Shown in pieces: positions 2,165-59,610 of a stretch of DNA of 64,000 nt. This stretch comes from Methylotenera oryzisoli. GTDB taxonomy: Bacteria > Pseudomonadota > Gammaproteobacteria > Burkholderiales > Methylophilaceae. The stretch is taken from NCBI GenBank assembly GCA_945881735.1, contig CAMCVF010000001.1:186001-250000 (forward strand), in the 5' to 3' direction. Position 1 is the first letter of the stretch; every line of letters starts with the position of its first letter. The notes under the pieces were generated by a model, which was given only the letters and a program-made list of their open reading frames with translations, made no database searches and was not told where the DNA came from. The translations under genes and the position numbers were made by a program.

Positions 2165-3364
2165 CTAATTAAGCGGGACTAACTGATAGCCTTTTAGAGT
2201 GTTCCAAGATAAATAGACTTTCTTACCATTGCTAATTAAAGTAGGGTAATCGGCTTTTTCGCTGGTGCTAGCCAGAATTTTTGCATCACCCCAATTTCTG
2301 CCGCCACTATCTGAGAACATGCCCATAATTTTATAGCTTTTGGCTTCTACCTCGCGCCATACTAGCCATACTAGCTCTTCCTCTTTTTGGCCAGATACGC
2401 TTAAAATAGCAGGATGACCCGCCTGATGATGATCATTACCAAACTTTTTAGCAGTTGATGATGCCCAAGCTACGCCATCCATACGGCTGTAATACAAACC
2501 TGGGTTTGCGTCGTTACCTTCAAAATAGGCCATATGGTAACCCCACCAATCTTTACCAGCCGCTCCTGCTGCCAGCGCAGCGCCATGGTGTGGGCAACCA
2601 TCAATTTTCCAATGTCCAAACGTAGCGCGATGAAGTTCTGGCTTTAAGTCTGCTTTAGGAATCTCGGCAATATTATGATCACGCTCGCTACCTTCAAAGA
2701 CATGGCGCCACATGGCCACTACCGTGCCATCAGGCTTATTAGTGGTCACAATACGGCAGCACTCACAACTGTTATCCGCTAACTTTTTCTCAGGCTGAAA
2801 ACTTAGCCCTTTATCGCTTGAAACCGAGTAATAAATGGCCGCACCATCGTATTTTTTGTTAACCGCTTTCGCAGCTAATAAGTCGCGCTTATCTACCCAA
2901 GTAACAGTGATTTTGCCATCGGGTGCAATATGCAGTGCGTCAAATCGATGGGTAATTTCAGAACGGTCTGTATGCACTATCTGTGGTTTTTCAAAGCTTT
3001 TGCCCGCGTTGATAGACCGCGCAAACCAAATATAGCCAGAAAATGGCGTTTTTAGCGCTTCTGTCCAAGTTAGGTAAATATGGCCTTCTGGACTAATCGC
3101 AATTTTGGGCCGGGCTTCACCATCGGCGCCAATTTTTTGTGGCACTGCATTAACCTTCACGGCAGGCGAAAAACTTTTAGCTAAATCAATGCTGTAATCG
3201 ACCATCACAATTCCATCGCGCACACTCGCACGCCAAAGTTTACCCGCCGCATCCATCGCCACGCTAATGGCCATATTAGATTTTTGCGGCATGGTGTGCT
3301 CTTCATGCGCATAACTGATGATTGTTGTGAAAAGCAAACACAAAGACAACAGTAATTTTTTCAT
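2165..3364 (-). CDS. Exported Asp-box (sialidase-fold) protein with a CECC motif
   Basis: A 399-residue protein with a clear signal peptide (MKKLLLSLC... ending near SYA, residue 18), so it is periplasmic or outer-surface. Asp-box-like repeats are visible (SINAGKSF near 117, SSDKGLSF near 182, SDSGGRNW near 330), the signature of six-bladed BNR/sialidase propellers. A CECC cluster at residues 200-203 is unusual for a sialidase and could bind a metal. The catalytic arginine triad and nucleophile of true sialidases are not evident, so glycosidase activity should not be assumed. It lies 9 bases downstream of the TonB receptor on the same strand and is probably co-transcribed with it and the DUF2946 gene. 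Function unknown; fold assignment likely. Confidence 0.75.
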   Translation of the reverse strand: MKKLLLSLCLLFTTIISYAHEEHTMPQKSNMAISVAMDAAGKLWRASVRDGIVMVDYSIDLAKSFSPAVKVNAVPQKIGADGEARPKIAISPEGHIYLTWTEALKTPFSGYIWFARSINAGKSFEKPQIVHTDRSEITHRFDALHIAPDGKITVTWVDKRDLLAAKAVNKKYDGAAIYYSVSSDKGLSFQPEKKLADNSCECCRIVTTNKPDGTVVAMWRHVFEGSERDHNIAEIPKADLKPELHRATFGHWKIDGCPHHGAALAAGAAGKDWWGYHMAYFEGNDANPGLYYSRMDGVAWASSTAKKFGNDHHQAGHPAILSVSGQKEEELVWLVWREVEAKSYKIMGMFSDSGGRNWGDAKILASTSEKADYPTLISNGKKVYLSWNTLKGYQLVPLN

Positions 3365-3373
3365 TTTTTCACC

Positions 3374-5767
3374 CTAATAATCAAACTGCATCCCAGCAAA
3401 AAACGTACGCTGCGGATACGGGTTTGGGTTCACGTAATATTTGTAGTTGTTCAAGTTATTCACTCCAAACGATGCCGTCCAGTGTTTGTCCACTTTGTAC
3501 AAAAGTTTAGTATCAAACACCGTGTATTTGGTTGCAGTTGTACCGTAAGTATTGGGATTGGTGGTGTTATAAAGCAAATTAATTTCTTGATTGCCACTAT
3601 AACGGCCCGCCAAACTTACCGAGAACTGGTCATTCACATGATACACACCCACAATTGTGGCACGCCAATCAGGAATACGTGGCTGGTCTTTGCCTTCGGT
3701 AAATGGGTTTTTGTTATTCTTAATAATTTCGGAATCCACATAGGTGATGCTGCCATTTAAATCAAAACCATCAAACCATACATCAACCAGTTGAAAAGCA
3801 GTTTCAATGCCTTTGGTGCGGATTTTATCTATGTTTTGAACGCTGCTTATCACAAATCCTGGTATTGAGGTAGTGTCGGTTTGATTAGTTAAAGCATCTC
3901 GCTTGTCTTCAAAAAAGAATGAAGTTCTTAGCAAGCCTTTTGGTAAGATTTTTTCGACGGTAAATTCGCTAGATCTGACGCTCTCTGGTTTTAAATTGGG
4001 ATCATTCGTGACTGCAACGTTGAAAGGCGCAGGAAAACCAGCAATTTGTGGAAGTGTTGGGTTTGTGCCCCCCACTGTTCTAATTCCTACGTTTGCAAAC
4101 AACTCACTCACTGTTGGGTAACGATACGCTTTACCAAACGCACCTCGCAACATCCAATCGTGAGTTGGCTGATACGAGATCGCAAATTTCGGTGAAAAGT
4201 CAATTTGTTTGCGATCATTATAATTAAGCTGCTTAGGACCTCGATTGGCTTCATTAAAATTACTGCCATCAAACGCCTGCCAGCGCTCCCAACGTCCGCC
4301 CGCAGTAGCTTTCCAACCATGCGCAAACCCCCATGCATCTTGTAAGTAAAAGGCTTGCGTACGCGTTGTACCAAAAGAGTTGGTGCGTAAAATGCCGCTG
4401 TTGCTGTTTTTCCATTCAGCGATATTCAGGGTTTCCGATTCTAATTCATATTGGTCATAGTGATAACCAAAACTCACTTGGTGTGCGCTTTTTAAGTCGC
4501 CGTCTGGGCGCCATTCACCACGCAAATCAAGCGTTTTCCAACCTGTGCCATCATTGTTTACCAAGGTTCCCGCAGAATTAACCGCTCCATTACCATCATC
4601 AAACGCATTGGTTTGAACAGCCGTACGCACAAAGTCTTTGTTTTGTTCGTACATACTGGCAATTGCCTCAAAATCCCACTTGCCACCTGTATTCGATTTG
4701 AGTGAAAGCCCATGCATCCAGTGTTCACTTTCGCTTTGGCTAGGGCCAGTTGCTGTCACTGTATAGAAATTAGGGTCACCGGCAAATTGCACACGCTGAG
4801 TGTCACCACCGCTGGTGGTATTAAAAAAATTTTGACCTGTTTCAGTTTTTAAATAGCTCTCTACAGACCCGTTAGACTCATTTTGCCATAAACCTAAACT
4901 GTATTTTGCTTGCAAGGTTGGGGTTATATCGTACGCGATTTTAATTGTCGCGTTATCTTGCACGGTGTGATCAATCCCTGTGGTACTGGTGATAATGCGT
5001 GGCTGTCCTGTAGTATCAATATCGCGAATACCACCTGATACAAGCTTAGAATTGCGCGTGCTGGTGCTGCGCACGGCATTACCAAACGTTTGTGGCTGTC
5101 CGTGGCTATCTAAATGGTCCACATTGATTAAAAAAGAGAGGTCATTATATTTGCTGCCAACAGACGCACTACCGTGCCCACCACTAAATTGGTCATCCGC
5201 CCCGTACAATTTAAAACGTTGCGTAAAGCCGTCTAAGGCGACATGCGCTTCAAACTTTTCTGGCATACGCGTCGTGATATTTAACACGCCACCCATTGAA
5301 TTACCTGGATACAGTGCAGAAAATGGACCGTACATCACATCAATACGTTCTATCTCATTAGGCGAAACCATGGCCCAACGTGGCGGTGTGCTAAAGCTGT
5401 TATTCAGGAAATTAGACAGCAGCAGATTATCGGCATACACTAATGTTTGTGCGCTAGCAATTGAGCTGTTCGCGCGCATCACCAAAATGCCGTTGCGGTC
5501 GCCAATATAACGCTCACGTACGTGCACACTGGGCAAATACTGCAATGCACCAGAGGTGGTGACCGTGTTCACACTTTCTTTAATTTGTTTGGCCGTAACG
5601 CTTTCTACTGTATTCGGCGCATTGTTTGGAATGCCTAGTTTTGCGGCAGTAATTTCAATTTTTTCTAAAGACTGAAAATCTGCAGGCTCTGTATCATGCT
5701 CAGCAAAGGCAACTTGACAGCTTAACAAAGCAATAGAAAATAGGTTGATTTGAATCGTTTTTTTCAT
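3374..5767 (-). CDS. TonB-dependent outer-membrane receptor
   Basis: A 797-residue outer-membrane gated channel. It has an N-terminal signal peptide (MKKTIQINLFSIALLSCQVAFA), then a TonB-box-like segment (KIEITAAK), a plug domain (about 45-170, with IERIDVMYGPFSALYPGNSMGGVLNI), and a long beta-barrel ending in the C-terminal aromatic FFAGMQFDY typical of outer-membrane proteins. The substrate cannot be read from sequence. The flanking DUF2946 gene upstream and Cys-containing Asp-box protein downstream make a metal, possibly copper, more likely than a siderophore, but this is inference. No adjacent FecR/ECF pair is present, so classical surface signalling is not indicated. Confidence 0.93.
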   Translation of the reverse strand: MKKTIQINLFSIALLSCQVAFAEHDTEPADFQSLEKIEITAAKLGIPNNAPNTVESVTAKQIKESVNTVTTSGALQYLPSVHVRERYIGDRNGILVMRANSSIASAQTLVYADNLLLSNFLNNSFSTPPRWAMVSPNEIERIDVMYGPFSALYPGNSMGGVLNITTRMPEKFEAHVALDGFTQRFKLYGADDQFSGGHGSASVGSKYNDLSFLINVDHLDSHGQPQTFGNAVRSTSTRNSKLVSGGIRDIDTTGQPRIITSTTGIDHTVQDNATIKIAYDITPTLQAKYSLGLWQNESNGSVESYLKTETGQNFFNTTSGGDTQRVQFAGDPNFYTVTATGPSQSESEHWMHGLSLKSNTGGKWDFEAIASMYEQNKDFVRTAVQTNAFDDGNGAVNSAGTLVNNDGTGWKTLDLRGEWRPDGDLKSAHQVSFGYHYDQYELESETLNIAEWKNSNSGILRTNSFGTTRTQAFYLQDAWGFAHGWKATAGGRWERWQAFDGSNFNEANRGPKQLNYNDRKQIDFSPKFAISYQPTHDWMLRGAFGKAYRYPTVSELFANVGIRTVGGTNPTLPQIAGFPAPFNVAVTNDPNLKPESVRSSEFTVEKILPKGLLRTSFFFEDKRDALTNQTDTTSIPGFVISSVQNIDKIRTKGIETAFQLVDVWFDGFDLNGSITYVDSEIIKNNKNPFTEGKDQPRIPDWRATIVGVYHVNDQFSVSLAGRYSGNQEINLLYNTTNPNTYGTTATKYTVFDTKLLYKVDKHWTASFGVNNLNNYKYYVNPNPYPQRTFFAGMQFDY

Positions 5768-5863
5768 TGTGTCAACTCCAATTAAACGGTTGCAGTGATG
5801 AAATCAACTGCAATTAAAATCGCTTCGCTAATGCGCGAAACGCCTTAAAAAAATCCAATTTAA

Positions 5864-6289
5864 TTAACGTGCTGGCGGAGCTAGTGCAGGCGGAGGGAGT
5901 ACTGAAAAACGTGGGGAAAAAAGGGTGGTTGTTAAGGTGGTTTGTTGTGCTTGTGCAGCTAACAACGCCACAATTGGCGCATGAGATGCTTTAATGACCG
6001 CATCAGTATTAAAGTTGGCGCAGAAAGGGCAATGTTGTAAATGATGTCCGATTTCAATAGGAGCCTTACCAGTTGCCTTGGTTGTCAGCTCGGTCACAAT
6101 TTGATGGCCTTTTGTAGTTAGCACTTGAATAACCACTTTTTCACCGCTGGTGGTACAGATCTCTTGCGCAAAGCTATTGGTATTGTTTTGCGCCGCTAAT
6201 GCGTGCGAAATACTTGGAGCTACAGACGCAAAAAATATTGCAAATAAAGCAATACTGTGTACAAAACGAAATAATTTTTTCGAAAACAT
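5864..6289 (-). CDS. DUF2946-family exported protein with HCPFC motif
   Basis: A 141-residue protein that starts with a hydrophobic signal or anchor segment (residues about 10-32, ending SISHALA). It carries the family hallmark HCPFC near residues 88-92, preceded by GHH, a plausible soft-metal site. The C-terminus is Pro/Ala-rich (LPPPALAPP). DUF2946 genes are commonly found next to TonB receptors, several assigned to copper, which fits the receptor that follows 96 bases downstream on the same strand. It is the first gene of the putative three-gene unit. On the minus strand a TTGATT...TATAAT-like pair lies upstream in 6330-6360. Biochemical role unknown. Confidence 0.75.
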   Translation of the reverse strand: MFSKKLFRFVHSIALFAIFFASVAPSISHALAAQNNTNSFAQEICTTSGEKVVIQVLTTKGHQIVTELTTKATGKAPIEIGHHLQHCPFCANFNTDAVIKASHAPIVALLAAQAQQTTLTTTLFSPRFSVLPPPALAPPAR

Positions 6290-24194: not shown

Positions 24195-24626
24195 ATGACA
24201 AACTTATTTAAAACAGCTTTTTTTATCGGCTTACTCACCGCTTTTCAAGCGCATGCTGAAGTAAAAATTAGCGATGCTTGGGTTCGCGCCAACGCTCCAG
24301 GTCAAAAGGTTGGCGCCGCATATATGACTTTTATCAGCCCGCAAGATACTACCTTGGTTTTTATCGAATCGCCTGATGCAGGATCCGTTGAAATTCACAG
24401 CATGAGTATGAGTAACGGCGTGATGAAAATGCGGATGTTAGAAGAATTAGTGCTTAAAGCAGGTAAAGCAGAGAAATTAGTACCGGGTGGATTTCACTTA
24501 ATGTTGTTTGATTTGACTAAACCTTTGAAAGCTGGCGAAAAGGCCACGTTTAAGCTTTGCTTTAAAGACAAATCGGGTAACATGACGCACCAAACTATTA
24601 TGCTACCAATTAAAGAGCTTAATTAG
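24195..24626 (+). CDS. Periplasmic copper chaperone PCuAC (DUF461)
   Basis: 143 residues with a signal peptide (MTNLFKTAFFIGLLTAFQAHA). The mature part begins VKISDAWVRANAPG, a hallmark of PCuAC. The Cu(I) motif H-X10-M-X21-H-X-M is present: EIHSMSMS, the Met pair MRM, then GGFHLML (about 105-111). PCuAC delivers copper to cytochrome oxidase CuA. No Sco or oxidase gene is adjacent; it lies convergent with the Nudix-ThiE gene. The TATA-rich 100 bases upstream may hold its promoter. Confidence 0.92.
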   Translation: MTNLFKTAFFIGLLTAFQAHAEVKISDAWVRANAPGQKVGAAYMTFISPQDTTLVFIESPDAGSVEIHSMSMSNGVMKMRMLEELVLKAGKAEKLVPGGFHLMLFDLTKPLKAGEKATFKLCFKDKSGNMTHQTIMLPIKELN

Positions 24627-43884: not shown

Positions 43885-44680
43885 ATGAATCAATTAATAT
43901 TTTTTAACGCTAAACCTTACGCTAATGAGCACGCCTATTTGGGCTGAAACCAAATTTAGAATCATTACCTTGCAACACCGCTTTGCTAGCGACTTATTAC
44001 GGACGATTTCACCTATGGTTGGCTTGGGTGGAACAGCTATGGATATTGATAATCAACTAATTTTGCGCGCGCAACCAGAACGCATGCGTGAAATTGAAGC
44101 CATCATAGATAAGTTAGACGCCACCAGTGTGAATCGCAGAATTACGGTTAGCAATAGCCTAACATCAACCACGGAAACCAGTCATAAATTTCGTTCTGGT
44201 AATGCCAATATATCCAACTCTGGGCGCTCGCAAAATAATGGCGGGGGCACAATATTTGAGAGCAACACTAGGAGCAATAGCCAAACGTGCAAGCAGTTAA
44301 TTATTGTAATTAGATAGTGAACGGGGGTTTTTAGTATTGTACAGTTAATACTGTTTACACAAGAGTATGTTTGTATCAGACGCTGTTATGTTCAAATTAA
44401 ACGTATAAGCGATTGGCAGGAAGTCATCACTAGCTTTGCCGTGCAACCACGCGCCATTGGTAATCAAGTAATAGTAGAAATCACGCCGCGTATTTCAAGC
44501 ATCAATCAGCAAGAATTTATTGACTTTAAGGAACTCAGCACTATGCTTACGCTAAATTTAGGCAAGTGGTTAGATATTGGCGTAAAGATTCAAAATAAGG
44601 ATGCAATTAGCAGCAAAATACAGAGTTTACAATCCGTATCAAATACGCTAAAAAGACGTCTATTAATCAAAGTGGACTAA
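43885..44680 (+). pseudogene. Decayed secretin-like protein (short type II/GspD-like)
   Basis: Pieces appear in order but in different frames. An ATG at 43885 opens MNQLIFF and, after a one-base shift in a T-run, a signal peptide ending STPIWA. Then KFRIITLQHRFASDLL...IDNQLILRAQPERMREIEAIIDKLD (N-domain), VNRRITVS to a stop near 44317. A damaged middle follows, then FAVQPRAIGNQVIVEITPRI, LGKWLDIGV and NTLKRRLLIKVD to a stop at 44678-44680. These match the short secretin-domain proteins found alone in betaproteobacteria. Confidence 0.75.
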
Positions 44681-54952: not shown

Positions 54953-56076
54953 ATGAAAATCGCGACAGGTTTAGCAGTCGGCCTTAAAGCAGAGCCAGAA
55001 CTGGCGGCGGCTGCCGTTTTAAGCGGAATGAGCAAAGGCGAATTAGATGCGTCTGCCTGTGTATTGTTATTTTAAGCTCAGAGTTTGCATCTAGCCCCAG
55101 AATCAGCCATCAAAGCGGCGGCCAAAGCCTCTTGTTGCACCAGCATTATTGGCTGCTCGGCAATTGGCATTTTTACAGAAAAAGATTGGGTCATTGATAG
55201 CCCAGCAGCGGCGGTGATGGTGTTTTCAGACAATAGTTGGTAAAAGCCAGAACAACAAATAAATACCAATTTAAGTGCCACACTACTGTTGACTCTAGCC
55301 GCACCTAATGCCATTAATAGCTCATGGCTTAATGCTAAACAGCAACGTTTAGGCGGCGTGTCGGGCGATGCGATTGGGCAAGGTGCTTTTTCGGTTTAGG
55401 AAAACGCCAAGGGTATTACACAAGGCTATTGTGAAATGCGATTAAATAACGCGGAAAATTCCGTGGGCGCAACTCACAGCTTAAAATTATTAACCAGCCC
55501 GCGTAGGGTTACTACCAGTAAACAGCTGGATTTATTATCCATTGCTAACTTACCTGCATTGGACTCTTTAAAAGCGGTATGCAAGAAAGAGGCTTTTTAG
55601 ATGCAATGGGGGAAATACTTTATCATCAGATGATGGCGGTATATTCAAGCCGCGCATTAAATATTGAACACGGCAATTATCATTTAGCGTCTATAATTGC
55701 TGGGGACGAATCTATAGGCGCTGTGACTTTAGCCAAACCTTTACAAATGGGTGATTGGGTGAGTTCAGCGGTGCGCGATATGGATGCCGCGCAAATTGAC
55801 TTGGTGAAAACCGCCGGTACATTAAGGCGGCAATTAGACACACAAACCAATAACAATGTACCGCAATTTGGGCCGCTATTTTTATGCCTTGGACGTGGAC
55901 TGTATTTGTACAATGGCGTTGACCAAGATTTAGCATTACTTAAATCCTTAATTCCCAATCTGCCGCTGATTGGCTTTTATGGCAATGGCGAAATTGCGCC
56001 AATTAGAGGCAAAAATGAATTGCTACAATATTCAGCCGTGTTAGGGCTATTTGGTAAAAACAATGAGTCTATTTAA
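54953..56076 (+). pseudogene. Decayed FIST-domain sensory protein
   Basis: From the ATG at 54953 one frame reads MKIATGLAVGLKAEPELAAA and keeps family character through three in-frame stops: TAA at 55073, TAA at 55241 and TAG at 55397. The frame then shifts by one base before 55579, after which MQERGFLDAMGEILYHQMM... GPLFLCLGRGLYLY... GFYGNGEIAPI (FIST_C) continues to 56076. FIST proteins are ligand-binding sensors. The end overlaps the DUF1841 start. No full product is possible; residual expression of the last 165 codons would lack a sensor half. Confidence 0.85.
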
Positions 56077-56506
56077 TCCATCGCGTGATGAAGTGCGTAA
56101 ATTCTTTTTTGAGGCTTGGGCCAAGTGGAGAAAAAAAGACGTCCTAACAGATTTAGAAAAGCTTGGCCTGCATATTATGCAAATGCATCCTGAATATCAC
56201 CCGATTTTAGATGCGCCAGAACACTATAAGCAGATAGCGTATTATCCAGAAATGGGCGAGACCAATCCTTTTTTGCACATGAGTTTACATCTATCAGTTT
56301 TAGAACAAATTAGCATTAATCAGCCAATTGGTATAACGCCCATCTATCACAAACTATTATTCAAGTATCAAAATGAGCACGATGCGCAGCATGATATTTT
56401 AGAGTGCTTGGGTGAAACTATCTGGCTGGCGCAACGCAATCAAACAGGATTAGACAGCGAGCATTATTTAACGCTAGTGCAACAAAAAGCTGGCATTGTT
56501 ACTTAA
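56063..56506 (+). CDS. DUF1841-family protein
   Basis: 147 residues from the ATG at 56063 (MSLFNPSRDEVRKFFFEAW), matching the family opening; an earlier in-frame ATG at 56051 is not needed. FLHMSLHLSVLEQISINQP (about 75-93) and HDAQHDILECLGETIWLAQ (about 108-126) are family hallmarks. Soluble, helical, His-rich. Function unknown. It is intact though surrounded by decayed genes, which suggests selection. In betaproteobacteria it often follows the nth/FIST genes. Confidence 0.9.
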   Translation: MSLFNPSRDEVRKFFFEAWAKWRKKDVLTDLEKLGLHIMQMHPEYHPILDAPEHYKQIAYYPEMGETNPFLHMSLHLSVLEQISINQPIGITPIYHKLLFKYQNEHDAQHDILECLGETIWLAQRNQTGLDSEHYLTLVQQKAGIVT

Positions 56507-56534
56507 TTGCAACTTACGTGATTGAATATTCAAT

Positions 56535-57091
56535 ATGACAACTTCACATAATATGCAAGATTGGCTAAACTAGCATAGTGATTTTTTATACCGATTTGCG
56601 TTAGCAAGATTGCGCGATCCGCATTTGGCAGAAGATGTTGTGCAAGAAACCTTTTTGGCGGCGATTAAAAACCAATCATTTGCAGGAAAATCGGCACCGC
56701 GCACTTGTTTAACTGGCATTTTAAAGCATAAAATTATTGATGTGATGCGCAAAAATGTTCGCGAAATTGCGGCATCGGATTTAATGTCAGACAAAGTGCT
56801 AATATGTACGAATTTTTTGATGATGCAGGTCACTAGACTGAAAAGCCTCCTGCGTGGAACATGCCAGAAAACGTACTAGAGCATAAGCAATTTTTAGGCG
56901 TATTGCAAAACTGCATGGACAAGTTACCGGCCAAATTAGCCACGCTTTTTATGATGCGCGATGTGCACAAAACTGACAATGAAGAAATTTGTAAGGAGCT
57001 CAATATCAGCACGATCAATGCTTGGGTGATGATATACAAAGCTCAAATGGGTAATCGAAAGTGTTTGAAAATTAATTGGATAGGAGTTTAG
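56535..57091 (+). pseudogene. Decayed ECF sigma factor
   Basis: From an ATG at 56535 the frame reads MTTSHNMQDWLN, stop (TAG at 56571), then HSDFLYRFALARLRDPHLAEDVVQETFLAA (sigma region 2, spread) in the same frame. It shifts near 56800, where YEFFDDAGH, another TAG, then TEKPPAWNMPENVLEHKQFLG continue. The region-4 part KLPAKLATLFMMRDV...EEICKELNIST (helix-turn-helix) runs to 57091. Two nonsense codons and one frameshift. Upstream of the RiPP cluster, in the place of its usual regulator. Confidence 0.85.
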
Positions 57092-57101
57092 AGGTTTAGC
57101 T

Positions 57102-57351
57102 ATGTTAGACTTTCGACAAGCAGGTCAACTTATTTCAAAATCGCTAGATCATCAATTGTCAAGGCCTGAGCGACTTGCAGTACGTTTACATCTGTAATTT
57201 TAAGTATTGCAAGCGCTTTAGTCCGCCGCTAAACACCATGCGTAAAGCACTCAATCGCCTGTCACAATCGATTGAAAACAACCCAAATATTCGATTACCA
57301 TCTGAAACTAAAAATCGGATTGCAAGCTCAATTGAATCTAGACCAGATTAA
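57102..57351 (+). pseudogene. Decayed zinc-finger (zf-HC2) anti-sigma factor
   Basis: MLDFRQAGQLISKSLDHQLSRPERLAVRLHL is the typical start of the small anti-sigma partner of ECF factors, then a stop at 57195. A shifted frame continues KYCKRFSPPLNTMRKAL, where the zinc-finger C-X2-C has lost its first Cys, and ends ASSIESRPD, stop at 57349-57351. Eleven bases after the sigma remnant. Confidence 0.75.
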
Positions 57352-57435
57352 ATTGTGTATAACTTAGTCAACACTTCATCACACATGTTGTTACTTAAAT
57401 AATTGTTTAACTTAATTTTTAAAAGGAAATAAATC

Positions 57436-57699
57436 ATGAAAACATCAAACAAAACCATCGCTTTAGCATTATCAGGCGCTTTTGCTTTATCAATCGCAGC
57501 CACTCCAATTAACGCAGCAGAGAATCCATTTGCGATCAAAGCATTGTCTAGCGGCTACCAAGTGGCTGATCACCATGAAAAAATGAAAGACGGCAAATGT
57601 GGCGAAGGCAAATGCGGCGCCGAAATGAAAAAAGAAATGGGTGCAAAGGTGCATGACGGCAAATGTGGCGAAGGCAAATGCGGCGACCATAAGAAATAA
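57436..57699 (+). CDS. HvfA/bufferin-like secreted precursor peptide with [DE]GKCG motifs
   Basis: 87 residues with AAGGAAATAAATC before the ATG. Signal peptide 1-27 (MKTSNKTIALALSGAFALSI... INA). The mature start ENPFAIKALSSGYQVA (29-44) is the conserved leader of these precursors. Core: two identical blocks DGKCGEGKCG at 52-61 and 74-83, so all four Cys (55, 60, 77, 82) sit in [DE]GKCG, the motif modified by MNIO enzymes to copper-binding oxazolone/thioamide pairs. The downstream DUF692 and DUF2063 genes complete the set. Exported, proposed to chelate copper in the periplasm. The last residues are GDHKK. Product structure is inferred, not shown. Confidence 0.9.
   Translation: MKTSNKTIALALSGAFALSIAATPINAAENPFAIKALSSGYQVADHHEKMKDGKCGEGKCGAEMKKEMGAKVHDGKCGEGKCGDHKK
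57589..57685 (+). repeat. Perfect 31-base direct repeat inside the precursor gene
   Basis: Positions 57589-57619 and 57655-57685 are identical over 31 bases (starting GACGGCAAATGT and ending AAATGCGGCG), with a 66-base period. They encode the two DGKCGEGKCG blocks. Identity at synonymous positions suggests a recent duplication or gene conversion. Confidence 0.95.
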
Positions 57700-57735
57700 T
57701 TTTAAATCGTCACTAAAGCCACGCATCCTTTCATT

Positions 57736-58644
57736 GTGTCATCTTTAGTTGATATTAATGGCGTAGGTCTGGGGTTAAAGCGCGAGCTAATACCTCAAAT
57801 CCAAACGCTTTATCAAGATCCATCCATTGCCAATATTAACTTTGTTGAAATTGCACCCGAAAACTGGATTGGCGCAGGTGGTAAAGCGCAAGCCGATTTA
57901 GCCTGGTTTGTCGATCGCTATCCGATTGCTTGTCATGGCTTATGTCTATCACTTGGCGGCATCGATCCCTTAAATACGGATTTCTTAAAACAAGTTAAAT
58001 CCTTTTTAAGCTCAAATGCCATTCCACTTTATACCGAACACTTAAGCTATTGCAGTGACTTTTATCATGGCAAAAGCGGCTACTTATACGATTTACTTCC
58101 TATCCCGTTTACAGAAGAAGCGGTTCACTATGTGACCGCCAGAATCAGGCAAACGCAGGATATTTTGGAACAAAAAATAGCCATCGAAAACGCTTCGTTT
58201 TATGCCGCAGCGCCTATTTCTACTCTAAGTGAAATTGATTTTTTAAATGCAGTATTACAAGAAGCCGATTGTTACTTACATTTGGATATCAATAATATTT
58301 ATGTCAACAGCGTCAATTTCGTTAAAACGCATCAAGACCCAGCAAAAATAGCTTCCGATTTTTTACATAATATCCCCAAAGAGCGCATCGTTTACAGCCA
58401 TATTGCGGGGCATTATCAAGAGTCTGCTAATTTATTAATTGATACGCACGGTAAAGATGTTGCTGATCCTGTTTGGGATTTATTGGCGGAGGCATATCAA
58501 TTATTTGGCGTTTTCCCCACATTATTAGAGCGCGATAGCAACATTCCACCTTTGCCCACTTTAATGCGTGAAGTGAATAAAATTGCGGCATATCAAGCCG
58601 ATCACGCACCTAAACTCATCAAAAAAATGCAGTCAGCATGTTAG
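57736..58644 (+). CDS. DUF692 multinuclear non-haem iron oxidase (MNIO, HvfB/MbnB-like)
   Basis: 302 residues from a GTG at 57736 with no strong ribosome binding site, unlike the precursor. TIM-barrel iron enzyme that oxidises Cys in a peptide. Candidate metal ligands are intact: His67 (ACHGLCLS), Glu101 (YTEHLSY), Asn152 (IENASFY), Asp184 (HLDINNIYVNS), His222 and His226 (HIAGHYQ), Asp236/His238 (DTHGKDV) and Glu265 (LLERDSNIPP). 36 bases after the precursor and overlapping the DUF2063 gene by 7 bases. Member of the group acting with HvfC-type partners. Confidence 0.92.
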   Translation: MSSLVDINGVGLGLKRELIPQIQTLYQDPSIANINFVEIAPENWIGAGGKAQADLAWFVDRYPIACHGLCLSLGGIDPLNTDFLKQVKSFLSSNAIPLYTEHLSYCSDFYHGKSGYLYDLLPIPFTEEAVHYVTARIRQTQDILEQKIAIENASFYAAAPISTLSEIDFLNAVLQEADCYLHLDINNIYVNSVNFVKTHQDPAKIASDFLHNIPKERIVYSHIAGHYQESANLLIDTHGKDVADPVWDLLAEAYQLFGVFPTLLERDSNIPPLPTLMREVNKIAAYQADHAPKLIKKMQSAC

Positions 58645-59381
58645 AAAAGCAAAAGCTAGGCTTTCAGCAATATCAAACGCAGTTCACGGCTTGTATTCGC
58701 AACCCCACGCAAAATAAAAAACCACCACAGGTAAAGTCCAGTCGTTTAGCGGTTTATAAAAAAGCGGTTTTTAATAATATTGTAGGGTCGGTTTCAATCT
58801 GTTTTCCTGTATGCCAAGCCTTGATTGGCAAGCGCAAATGGCAAAGATTAATGCGAGAATTTGTGGCGAATTATGCTGCAGGCAGCCCAATATTTAGAGA
58901 AATCCCGGAGCAATTTTTATCGTTTTTAAAACCGCTTGAAAACGTGCCTACTTACTTTAAACAATTGGCACACTATGAATGGGTGGAGTTGGCGATTACC
59001 ATGCAGCAAACCGAGACTATTGCTAAAAGTGAAAAAACGAATTTATTGCATGAAAAACCGATGCTAGCGGCGGCGCATATGCTGCTGGAATATGATTATC
59101 CTGTTCATCAACTATCGGCAAAATTTAAGCAAAAACATCTACAAAAAACAACCTTACTAGTGTTTCGAAACGCAATATTTGAAGTGAAATTTATTGAACT
59201 CAATCCGATTACTTACCGTTTATTGCAAATAATCAATCAACAAGAATTAACCGGTGAGCAAGCATTAACAAAGCTTGCAAATGAGATAGAGCATCCTAGT
59301 GTGAATACGATTATTCAGTTTGGAATGGATATTTTGACGAATTTAGAGAGTCAGCAAGCCATTATTGGTAGTCGCCCATAA
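58638..59381 (+). CDS. DUF2063-family MNIO partner protein (HvfC-like)
   Basis: 247 residues. The N-terminal DUF2063 domain (about 1-100) has the typical RLAVYKKAVFNNIVGSV...CFPVCQALIGKRKWQRLMREFV, spread over about 36-76. The C-terminal half (about 120-247) is variable, as in MbnC/HvfC proteins. It holds the precursor peptide for the DUF692 enzyme. Starts inside the end of that gene (ATG TTA G overlap). The usual next gene, a DoxX-like membrane protein, is missing; a convergent DUF1289 gene lies downstream. Confidence 0.88.
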   Translation: MLEKQKLGFQQYQTQFTACIRNPTQNKKPPQVKSSRLAVYKKAVFNNIVGSVSICFPVCQALIGKRKWQRLMREFVANYAAGSPIFREIPEQFLSFLKPLENVPTYFKQLAHYEWVELAITMQQTETIAKSEKTNLLHEKPMLAAAHMLLEYDYPVHQLSAKFKQKHLQKTTLLVFRNAIFEVKFIELNPITYRLLQIINQQELTGEQALTKLANEIEHPSVNTIIQFGMDILTNLESQQAIIGSRP

Positions 59382-59427
59382 TTGATCAAACAACTTTTAA
59401 TCTAATGTCTTTTAATTAAGAGGCTAG

Positions 59428-59610
59428 TTAATCAAATAACTGGGTTTCACGCTCAGTGGCTTTGTGCAACACTTCTTTTTTCTGATGCGAATCTAAATCC
59501 CACCACTGTTGAATTTCATCCATCGTTCGGTAGCAACCTTGGCATAAGCCAGATAAATCATTCATGCTACAAACACCAATACAAGGAGATTGAATATCTA
59601 AATCGGACAT
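59428..59610 (-). CDS. DUF1289-family small protein
   Basis: 60 residues: SPCIGVCSMNDLSGLCQGCYRT (spread over 8-29) followed by DEIQQWWDL. The four cysteines and W-x-x-L form the DUF1289 signature, often described as an Fe-S or zinc-binding small protein. Function unknown. Convergent with the RiPP cluster, 36 bases before secA in the same direction. Confidence 0.92.
   Translation of the reverse strand: MSDLDIQSPCIGVCSMNDLSGLCQGCYRTMDEIQQWWDLDSHQKKEVLHKATERETQLFD

Follow-up and report, generated by a model that had tools for sequence, protein, structure and literature searches.

The genes hvfA, hvfB and hvfC of Methylotenera oryzisoli, found in a 64,000-nucleotide stretch of DNA that was analyzed as a whole (the window), are on the strength of their sequences an intact HvfABC ("oxazolin"/Lys-Cys captophorin) cluster, while the sigma and anti-sigma genes directly before them are relics. 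The reading that we favor, and regard as probable, is that of a working captophorin cluster making a copper peptide, whose sigma pair died only recently and which is now expressed from another promoter. An HvfA/HvfB/HvfC-type MNIO RiPP cluster had already been proposed for this place by a reading made from the sequence alone, and the assignment holds, as the NCBIfam cut-offs for HvfB, HvfC and the HvfA-family domain NF050137 are exceeded, with scores for hvfABC that lie far beyond chance.

The first gene of the trio, hvfA (57436-57699, + strand), was identified from the list of open reading frames and its translation and encodes a precursor of 87 amino acids, which scored 42.2 bits with the HvfA-family domain NF050137 (NCBIfam; cut-off 19.5) and gave no match in a Pfam scan. 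The sequence-only reading had described a secreted peptide of this length, and the open reading frame and the NF050137 score bear out the peptide; residues 1-27 (57436-57516, +), which end in ATPINA before AE, look like a Sec signal peptide, which we take them to be by eye and by the AxA rule. The peptide contains four cysteines (residues 55, 60, 77 and 82), each of which indeed lies within a DGKCG or EGKCG motif, and the translation and NF050137 place these motifs in two DGKCGEGKCG pairs at residues 52-61 (57589-57618, +) and 74-83 (57655-57684, +). In contrast, HvfA stayed below the equivalog model NF050188 (32.1 versus a cut-off of 95), as did the HvfA of the sister locus L034 (70.2), and the window HvfA is therefore HvfA-like by domain and not an HvfA equivalog by NF050188. 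The profile check suggested earlier was thus positive for HvfB, HvfC and the HvfA-family domain, but not for the HvfA equivalog.

The second gene, hvfB (57736-58644, +), has a GTG start that lies 36 nt beyond the hvfA stop codon, and it overlaps hvfC (58638-59381, +) by 7 nt, in agreement with the tight packing noted before, and the trio is syntenic in relatives. HvfB, the predicted MNIO enzyme (PF05114), reached 376.4 bits with NF003818 (NCBIfam; cut-off 360), and HvfC, the predicted PME1/RRE partner protein, reached 243.7 bits with NF050145 (NCBIfam; cut-off 142). The DUF2063 partner claimed earlier was recovered as well, since HvfC carries DUF2063 (PF09836) and a C-terminal RRE-type domain (PF22106) in Pfam. 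Among solved structures, HvfB is closest in sequence to 3BWW (E 3.6e-67) and HvfC to 3DEE (E 1.9e-12), and HvfB scored below the cut-offs of the BufB equivalog NF050167 (244 versus 310) and the MbnB equivalog TIGR04159 (24.4 versus 325). When 59 hvf-type rows (57 loci and the window, entered twice) were aligned with 33 other MNIO rows, H67, H102, E151, D184, N186, N187, H222, D236, H238, E265 and D267 of HvfB were among the nearly invariant acidic, Asn and His positions, most of which are covered by the 3BWW alignment; the claim of a DUF692 enzyme with all metal ligands is supported by this conservation. Residues N175, D242 and H244, reported to be essential in the HvfB of Haemophilus influenzae (PMC13419390), and D249, the proposed base of FonB (PMC13097082), correspond in a sequence alignment to NN186-187, D236, H238 and D267 of the window HvfB. 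The start codon of hvfB is TTG in sister L034, and 19 of the 77 family rows examined have an hvfB without an ATG start, which might hold the enzyme below the level of the precursor. MNIO open reading frames of 547-583 amino acids in family loci L021-L031 look like natural MNIO-DUF2063 fusions, resembling the artificial HvfBC fusion of PMC13419390, and L023:1468-3114, the sole candidate scanned, combines PF05114 and PF09836 in one protein.

The chemistry proposed for such clusters in the sequence-only reading, the formation of oxazolone/thioamide pairs, has to be replaced, since the oxazolin product formerly described in this way is now assigned in print as a 5-thiooxazole (PMC13097082; PMC13419390); the predicted shift of about -4 Da per cysteine still holds under the new assignment. 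By analogy with these systems, from which we infer enzyme activity, modification, export, copper binding and sigma-free expression, HvfC as the RRE partner would present the HvfA precursor to HvfB, and HvfB as a mixed-valent di-iron MNIO would oxidize each of the four cysteines by four electrons, converting each into a 5-thiooxazole (about -16 Da in total). HvfA would then be exported by Sec and bind Cu(I) in the periplasm, a property that is expected from its family, as copper binding has been seen for fontiphorin and gonophorin (PMC13097082). Whether the motifs that begin with D are modified had been left as an open point. However, FonBC modified a DGKCG substrate completely in vitro (PMC13097082), and DGKCG is the commonest motif in our family sample (76 occurrences versus 61 of EGKCG), so that by analogy the D-first motif should pose no obstacle to modification.

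Three relics upstream of hvfA had found no mention in the earlier reading. In relatives the gene order is nth-FIST-DUF1841-sigma-antisigma-hvfA-hvfB-hvfC, and in the window the DUF1841 gene (56051-56506, +; PF08897 and synteny) forms an intact flank of this conserved site. The FIST-domain gene (54953-56076, +), of which an open piece still contains a FIST_C domain (Pfam), carries three in-frame stops and a frameshift compared with the intact gene of the sister; the TIGR02943-type ECF sigma gene (56535-57091, +) carries two in-frame stops and one frameshift; and the ZAS-type anti-sigma gene (57102-57351, +) has a 2-bp deletion, which shifts the frame, and a change of Cys4 to Phe. In sister L034, which groups with the window with full support on the HvfB+HvfC tree (quick method), both regulators are intact, with 199.7 bits for the sigma gene (TIGR02943; cut-off 162.2) and 72.7 bits for the anti-sigma gene (NF052368; cut-off 50), and by our own count the latter has Cys/His at places 4, 30, 34 and 37, as reported for MseR (PMC2893595). 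The window, in which both are relics, thus falls outside a Sigma-E/MseR type defined by an intact TIGR02943 sigma gene and a ZAS anti-sigma gene beside hvfA, and this comparison indicates that its sigma and anti-sigma genes became pseudogenes after the split from the nearest sampled relative. In most relatives, hvfA follows an ECF sigma gene and its ZAS anti-sigma gene, as in the Neisseria rpoE operon. No lesions were seen in hvfA, hvfB, hvfC, DUF1841, nth, DUF1289 and secA. Together the relics of sigma, anti-sigma and FIST contain eight disabling lesions and hvfABC none, while about eight would be expected in hvfABC (approximately 1.9 kb) if it had decayed equally with the relics (also approximately 1.9 kb), assuming equal onset and rate.

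The state of the sigma gene was followed through a sample of 150 genomes of the Methylophilaceae, 93 of which contain an MNIO gene and 84 an hvf-type locus (82 fetched loci with at least 55% identity to the window HvfB, the window itself, and G047, judged from coordinates); a number of genomes carry an additional MNIO gene whose identity to HvfB is lower. Sigma was intact in 70 of the 84 loci and out of view in two (G095 and G039), and it was not intact in 12, being broken in four (G000, the genome of the window, G083, G007 and G042) and absent in eight (G070, with a deletion scar, G126, G067, G094, G076, G082, G024 and G110); for G042 and G061, the sigma region came from a different contig, which breaks off within hvfA, and was treated as part of the same locus. 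On an HvfB+HvfC tree of 83 loci (12 not intact, 69 intact) this distribution corresponds to nine changes of sigma state, for which the tree gives no direction, so that gain and loss are not told apart by it. The relics and the deletion scar, however, indicate loss in at least the window, G083, G007, G042 and G070. Moreover, outgroup loci L258, L259, L262 and L271 have a sigma match of 47-52% identity before hvfB together with an anti-sigma match, suggesting that the arrangement predates the family. Where intact sigma is missing, genome size is lower (median 1.81 versus 2.62 Mb, scaled by completeness), a difference between 12 and 70 genomes with p 4e-5, or p 0.001 with one value per event, both uncorrected for relatedness. 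The one hvf-type locus of the 84 off the usual site is G145:C92 (L087), which has its own sigma gene and a DoxX-like gene; the same genome also bears a broken hvfB at the usual site on another contig (L128, G145:C154). In Methylophilus rhizosphaerae CBMB127 (L112:4689-6648; G110; L245), an hvf locus without the sigma pair, the HvfA motifs have drifted (NGNCG, EGDCS, DGGCH), and hvfB and hvfC are open.

Other explanations for a dead regulator pair beside intact hvfABC have to be weighed. With 34 contigs totaling 2.02 Mb and a completeness of 92.7%, the genome is at draft stage, and the lesions might be assembly errors with both regulators alive, but this is very improbable, given that the lesions, which are of several kinds (the Cys4 change and stop substitutions among them), affect only three neighboring genes while seven other genes compared are clean, and that independent lesions or deletions occur in other genomes. 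It would also be conceivable, though we think it unlikely, that the cluster as a whole is being lost, the loss of sigma having silenced an operon in which hvfABC is intact only because this loss is recent. Between the window and L034, dN/dS is 0.07-0.11 for hvfABC and as low (0.04-0.07) for the sigma pieces, which suggests that sigma was lost recently and that hvfABC of the window may not have had time to decay. Such a fate is in line with the situation in G001, G077 and G129, where sigma and anti-sigma are retained and hvf is missing at the site, and in G145, where they are retained beside the broken hvfB; moreover, 57 of the 150 family genomes, among them at least four of the g21 clade (G020, G037, G049 and G058), have no MNIO gene at all, and no promoter stands out before hvfA. 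In contrast, a decaying cluster fits poorly with the finding that all eight disabling lesions lie in the relics and hvfABC has none, and with nine separate changes of sigma state in which hvf was retained. In the g21 clade, none of the four hvf-bearing loci read retains the sigma/anti-sigma pair, and yet hvfA, hvfB and hvfC have dN/dS values of 0.05-0.12 at dS 0.4-1.9 (four loci, three for hvfC), which shows that hvfABC is under purifying selection in this sigma-less clade.

As both regulators are pseudogenes and hvfABC is intact, expression of the peptide probably relies on another promoter, with the old stress switch gone, although no candidate for this promoter stands out. To our knowledge, oxidants or metal stress switch on those clusters of the hvf kind that have been studied to date. 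In Neisseria (NMB2140-2145; PMC2893595) and in H. influenzae (RpoE2; PMC7907618) the equivalent operon is reported to be driven by an ECF sigma factor that a zinc-type anti-sigma factor restrains, and the H. influenzae operon responds to HOCl. In an ECF promoter search of 59 rows (57 loci, with the window twice), the ECF-like motif GGAAC-N15-18-GTC was found five times up to 2.6 kb before hvfA, with eight expected; the matches just before hvfA in the sigma-less g21 loci L058 and L059 are suggestive only. Likewise, sigma-70-like sites in 56400-59500 were not above chance (8 versus 9.3 expected). That the switch was instead replaced, so that hvfABC is now driven by a copper regulator of the genome or by a different ECF sigma factor, seems rather doubtful. 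The genome does have two other sigma-like genes, on C7 and C10, with 29 and 22% identity to the sigma of the sister, but they fall short of the TIGR02943 cut-off (57.6 and 33.6 bits versus 162.2), a whole-genome search gave no intact orthologue of the sigma gene elsewhere, and the ECF-like motif before hvfA offers nothing beyond chance. We give a similarly low probability to a role of the HvfA peptide in handling another metal or in oxidant defense rather than as a copper buffer. The response of the Haemophilus operon to HOCl through RpoE2 (PMC7907618) would agree with such a role, and the physiological role and metal specificity of these peptides are said to need further study in the source in which fontiphorin and gonophorin were seen to bind copper (PMC13097082), the latter observation speaking for a copper peptide. 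A working captophorin cluster with a recently dead sigma pair therefore remains our preferred reading.

The family also differs from characterized enzymes in the pocket of HvfB. In FonB, Arg15, Arg16 and Phe250 are described as shaping the choice of motif (PMC13097082), and Phe250 contacts the residue after the cysteine. The equivalent of position 15 is Lys in all 83 family HvfB proteins, and that of Phe250 is Phe in one of 82 and Ser in the window. In a search across the class, 77 places beside the window were over the cut-off, of which 70 were read, 50 of them with a usable precursor (simple search); among these 70 loci outside the family, Arg15 is present in 66 and Phe250 in 65. Precursors in which Cys is followed by neither Gly nor Ala were found at 54 of 80 family loci, amounting to 205 of 448 motifs (80 of the 83 family rows, limited to motifs with Gly or Ala two before Cys), while the sole family locus with Phe has none among its five motifs; at class loci such residues follow Cys in one of 328 motifs with Phe (n=45) and in one of 18 without it (n=5). 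The four HvfA motifs of the window are all Cys-Gly. The coupling of non-Gly/Ala residues after Cys with the loss of Phe thus stands as a pattern across these sequences that comprises few independent events, since a test on the tree had three supported independent pairs and was not significant (on average 1.9 pairs with coupling, 0.0 against and 1.1 without difference). A corresponding coupling of D-first motifs with the loss of Phe250 was considered as well, as none of the 45 class loci with Phe has a D-first motif, yet it was rejected because the Phe-bearing outgroup loci L258, L259, L262, L271 and L277 have DGKCG. More tentatively, and with less than even confidence, we propose that in the Methylophilaceae the sigma pair has been lost or broken repeatedly while selection kept the peptide-making genes, so that a metallophore once induced by stress became a copper buffer that is always present, chiefly in the smaller genomes, and that the loss of Phe together with Lys in place of the gatekeeper Arg in HvfB opens Cys-Ser and Cys-His sites, now found in many precursors of the relatives, to modification.

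The lack of a DoxX gene had been read earlier as a departure from typical hvf operons. DoxX is indeed absent after hvfC in the window, where a DUF1289 gene and secA on the other strand come next, but this is ordinary in the Methylophilaceae, in which a DoxX-like gene follows hvfC at only seven of 83 hvf-type loci (counting open reading frames of at least 90 amino acids whose start lies no more than 450 bp beyond the hvfC match; at 79 of the 83 loci the visible sequence past hvfC exceeds 1 kb, and G047 is outside the count). One of the seven genes was scanned with Pfam and the other six were grouped with it by BLAST. The core genes of the hvf type are described as occurring "in various combinations" (PMC12452194). 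The genome holds one DoxX-family gene over the cut-off, elsewhere than hvf (L133, around G000:C6:33233-33487); the longest open reading frame there looks metallo-hydrolase-like by eye, and hvf genes are not near. No MNIO gene other than hvfB was found in the genome, and the best named relatives of the HvfB protein come from Methylotenera sp. D2_Bin_10, at 87% identity, and from Methylotenera versatilis 7, at 79%. Together with two hexulose-6-phosphate synthase matches over the cut-off, these Methylophilaceae relatives leave the earlier view of the host as a methylotroph well supported; the PQQ alcohol/methanol dehydrogenase model TIGR03075 gave matches below the cut-off only. Elsewhere in the window, a PCu(A)C copper chaperone gene (24195-24626, +) bears on copper handling, and a TonB-dependent receptor, a 399-amino-acid protein without a family match and a DUF2946 protein (2165-6289, -) possibly form a metal-uptake set. 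A lone Secretin_N domain in a 130-amino-acid open reading frame (43925-44317, +) is possibly a remnant of a larger secretin gene.

While the HvfABC cluster type is already known, the repeated loss of its regulator pair and the changed pocket appear to be undescribed in the searchable literature: in a search that left most subscription papers outside, no published account was found of Methylotenera with DUF692, of Methylophil- with multinuclear non-heme enzymes, or, among the papers listed, of captophorin genes with sigma pseudogenes next to them. That the cognate sigma/anti-sigma pair was lost again and again with hvfABC kept represents a natural test of the role of the peptide without its switch. 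In addition, the family provides a natural series of HvfB enzymes changed at positions of motif choice, with matching precursors, that would be useful for engineering thiooxazole peptides.

Among known systems, the window cluster resembles the oxazolin cluster hvfABC(X) of H. influenzae in its signal-peptide precursor with EGKCG-type repeats, its MNIO enzyme HvfB and its PME1 protein HvfC. It differs in having four motifs, two of them D-first, compared with six modified cysteines in H. influenzae, in lacking a neighboring DoxX/HvfX gene (frequent in the class, although not universal), in the Lys and Ser of HvfB at the positions of FonB Arg15 and Phe250, and in having no living sigma gene beside hvfA. 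The Neisseria rpoE operon NMB2140-2145 (gonococcal NGO1943-1948) keeps ECF sigma, ZAS anti-sigma and hvf-type genes together (PMC2893595); sister L034 shares sigma and anti-sigma genes of this kind, whereas in the window both are relics and DoxX is absent. Bufferins (BufABC) are likewise copper-linked RiPPs made with an MNIO enzyme and a partner protein, but the window HvfB is below the BufB cut-off, and the window precursor carries EGKCG-type repeats. The fontiphorin cluster fon of Fontimonas thermophila is similar in its combination of an EGKCG precursor, an MNIO enzyme and a PME1 protein and in its acceptance of DGKCG (PMC13097082), and differs in its seven thiooxazoles and in the Arg15 and Phe250 of FonB, both of which are changed in the family to which the window belongs.
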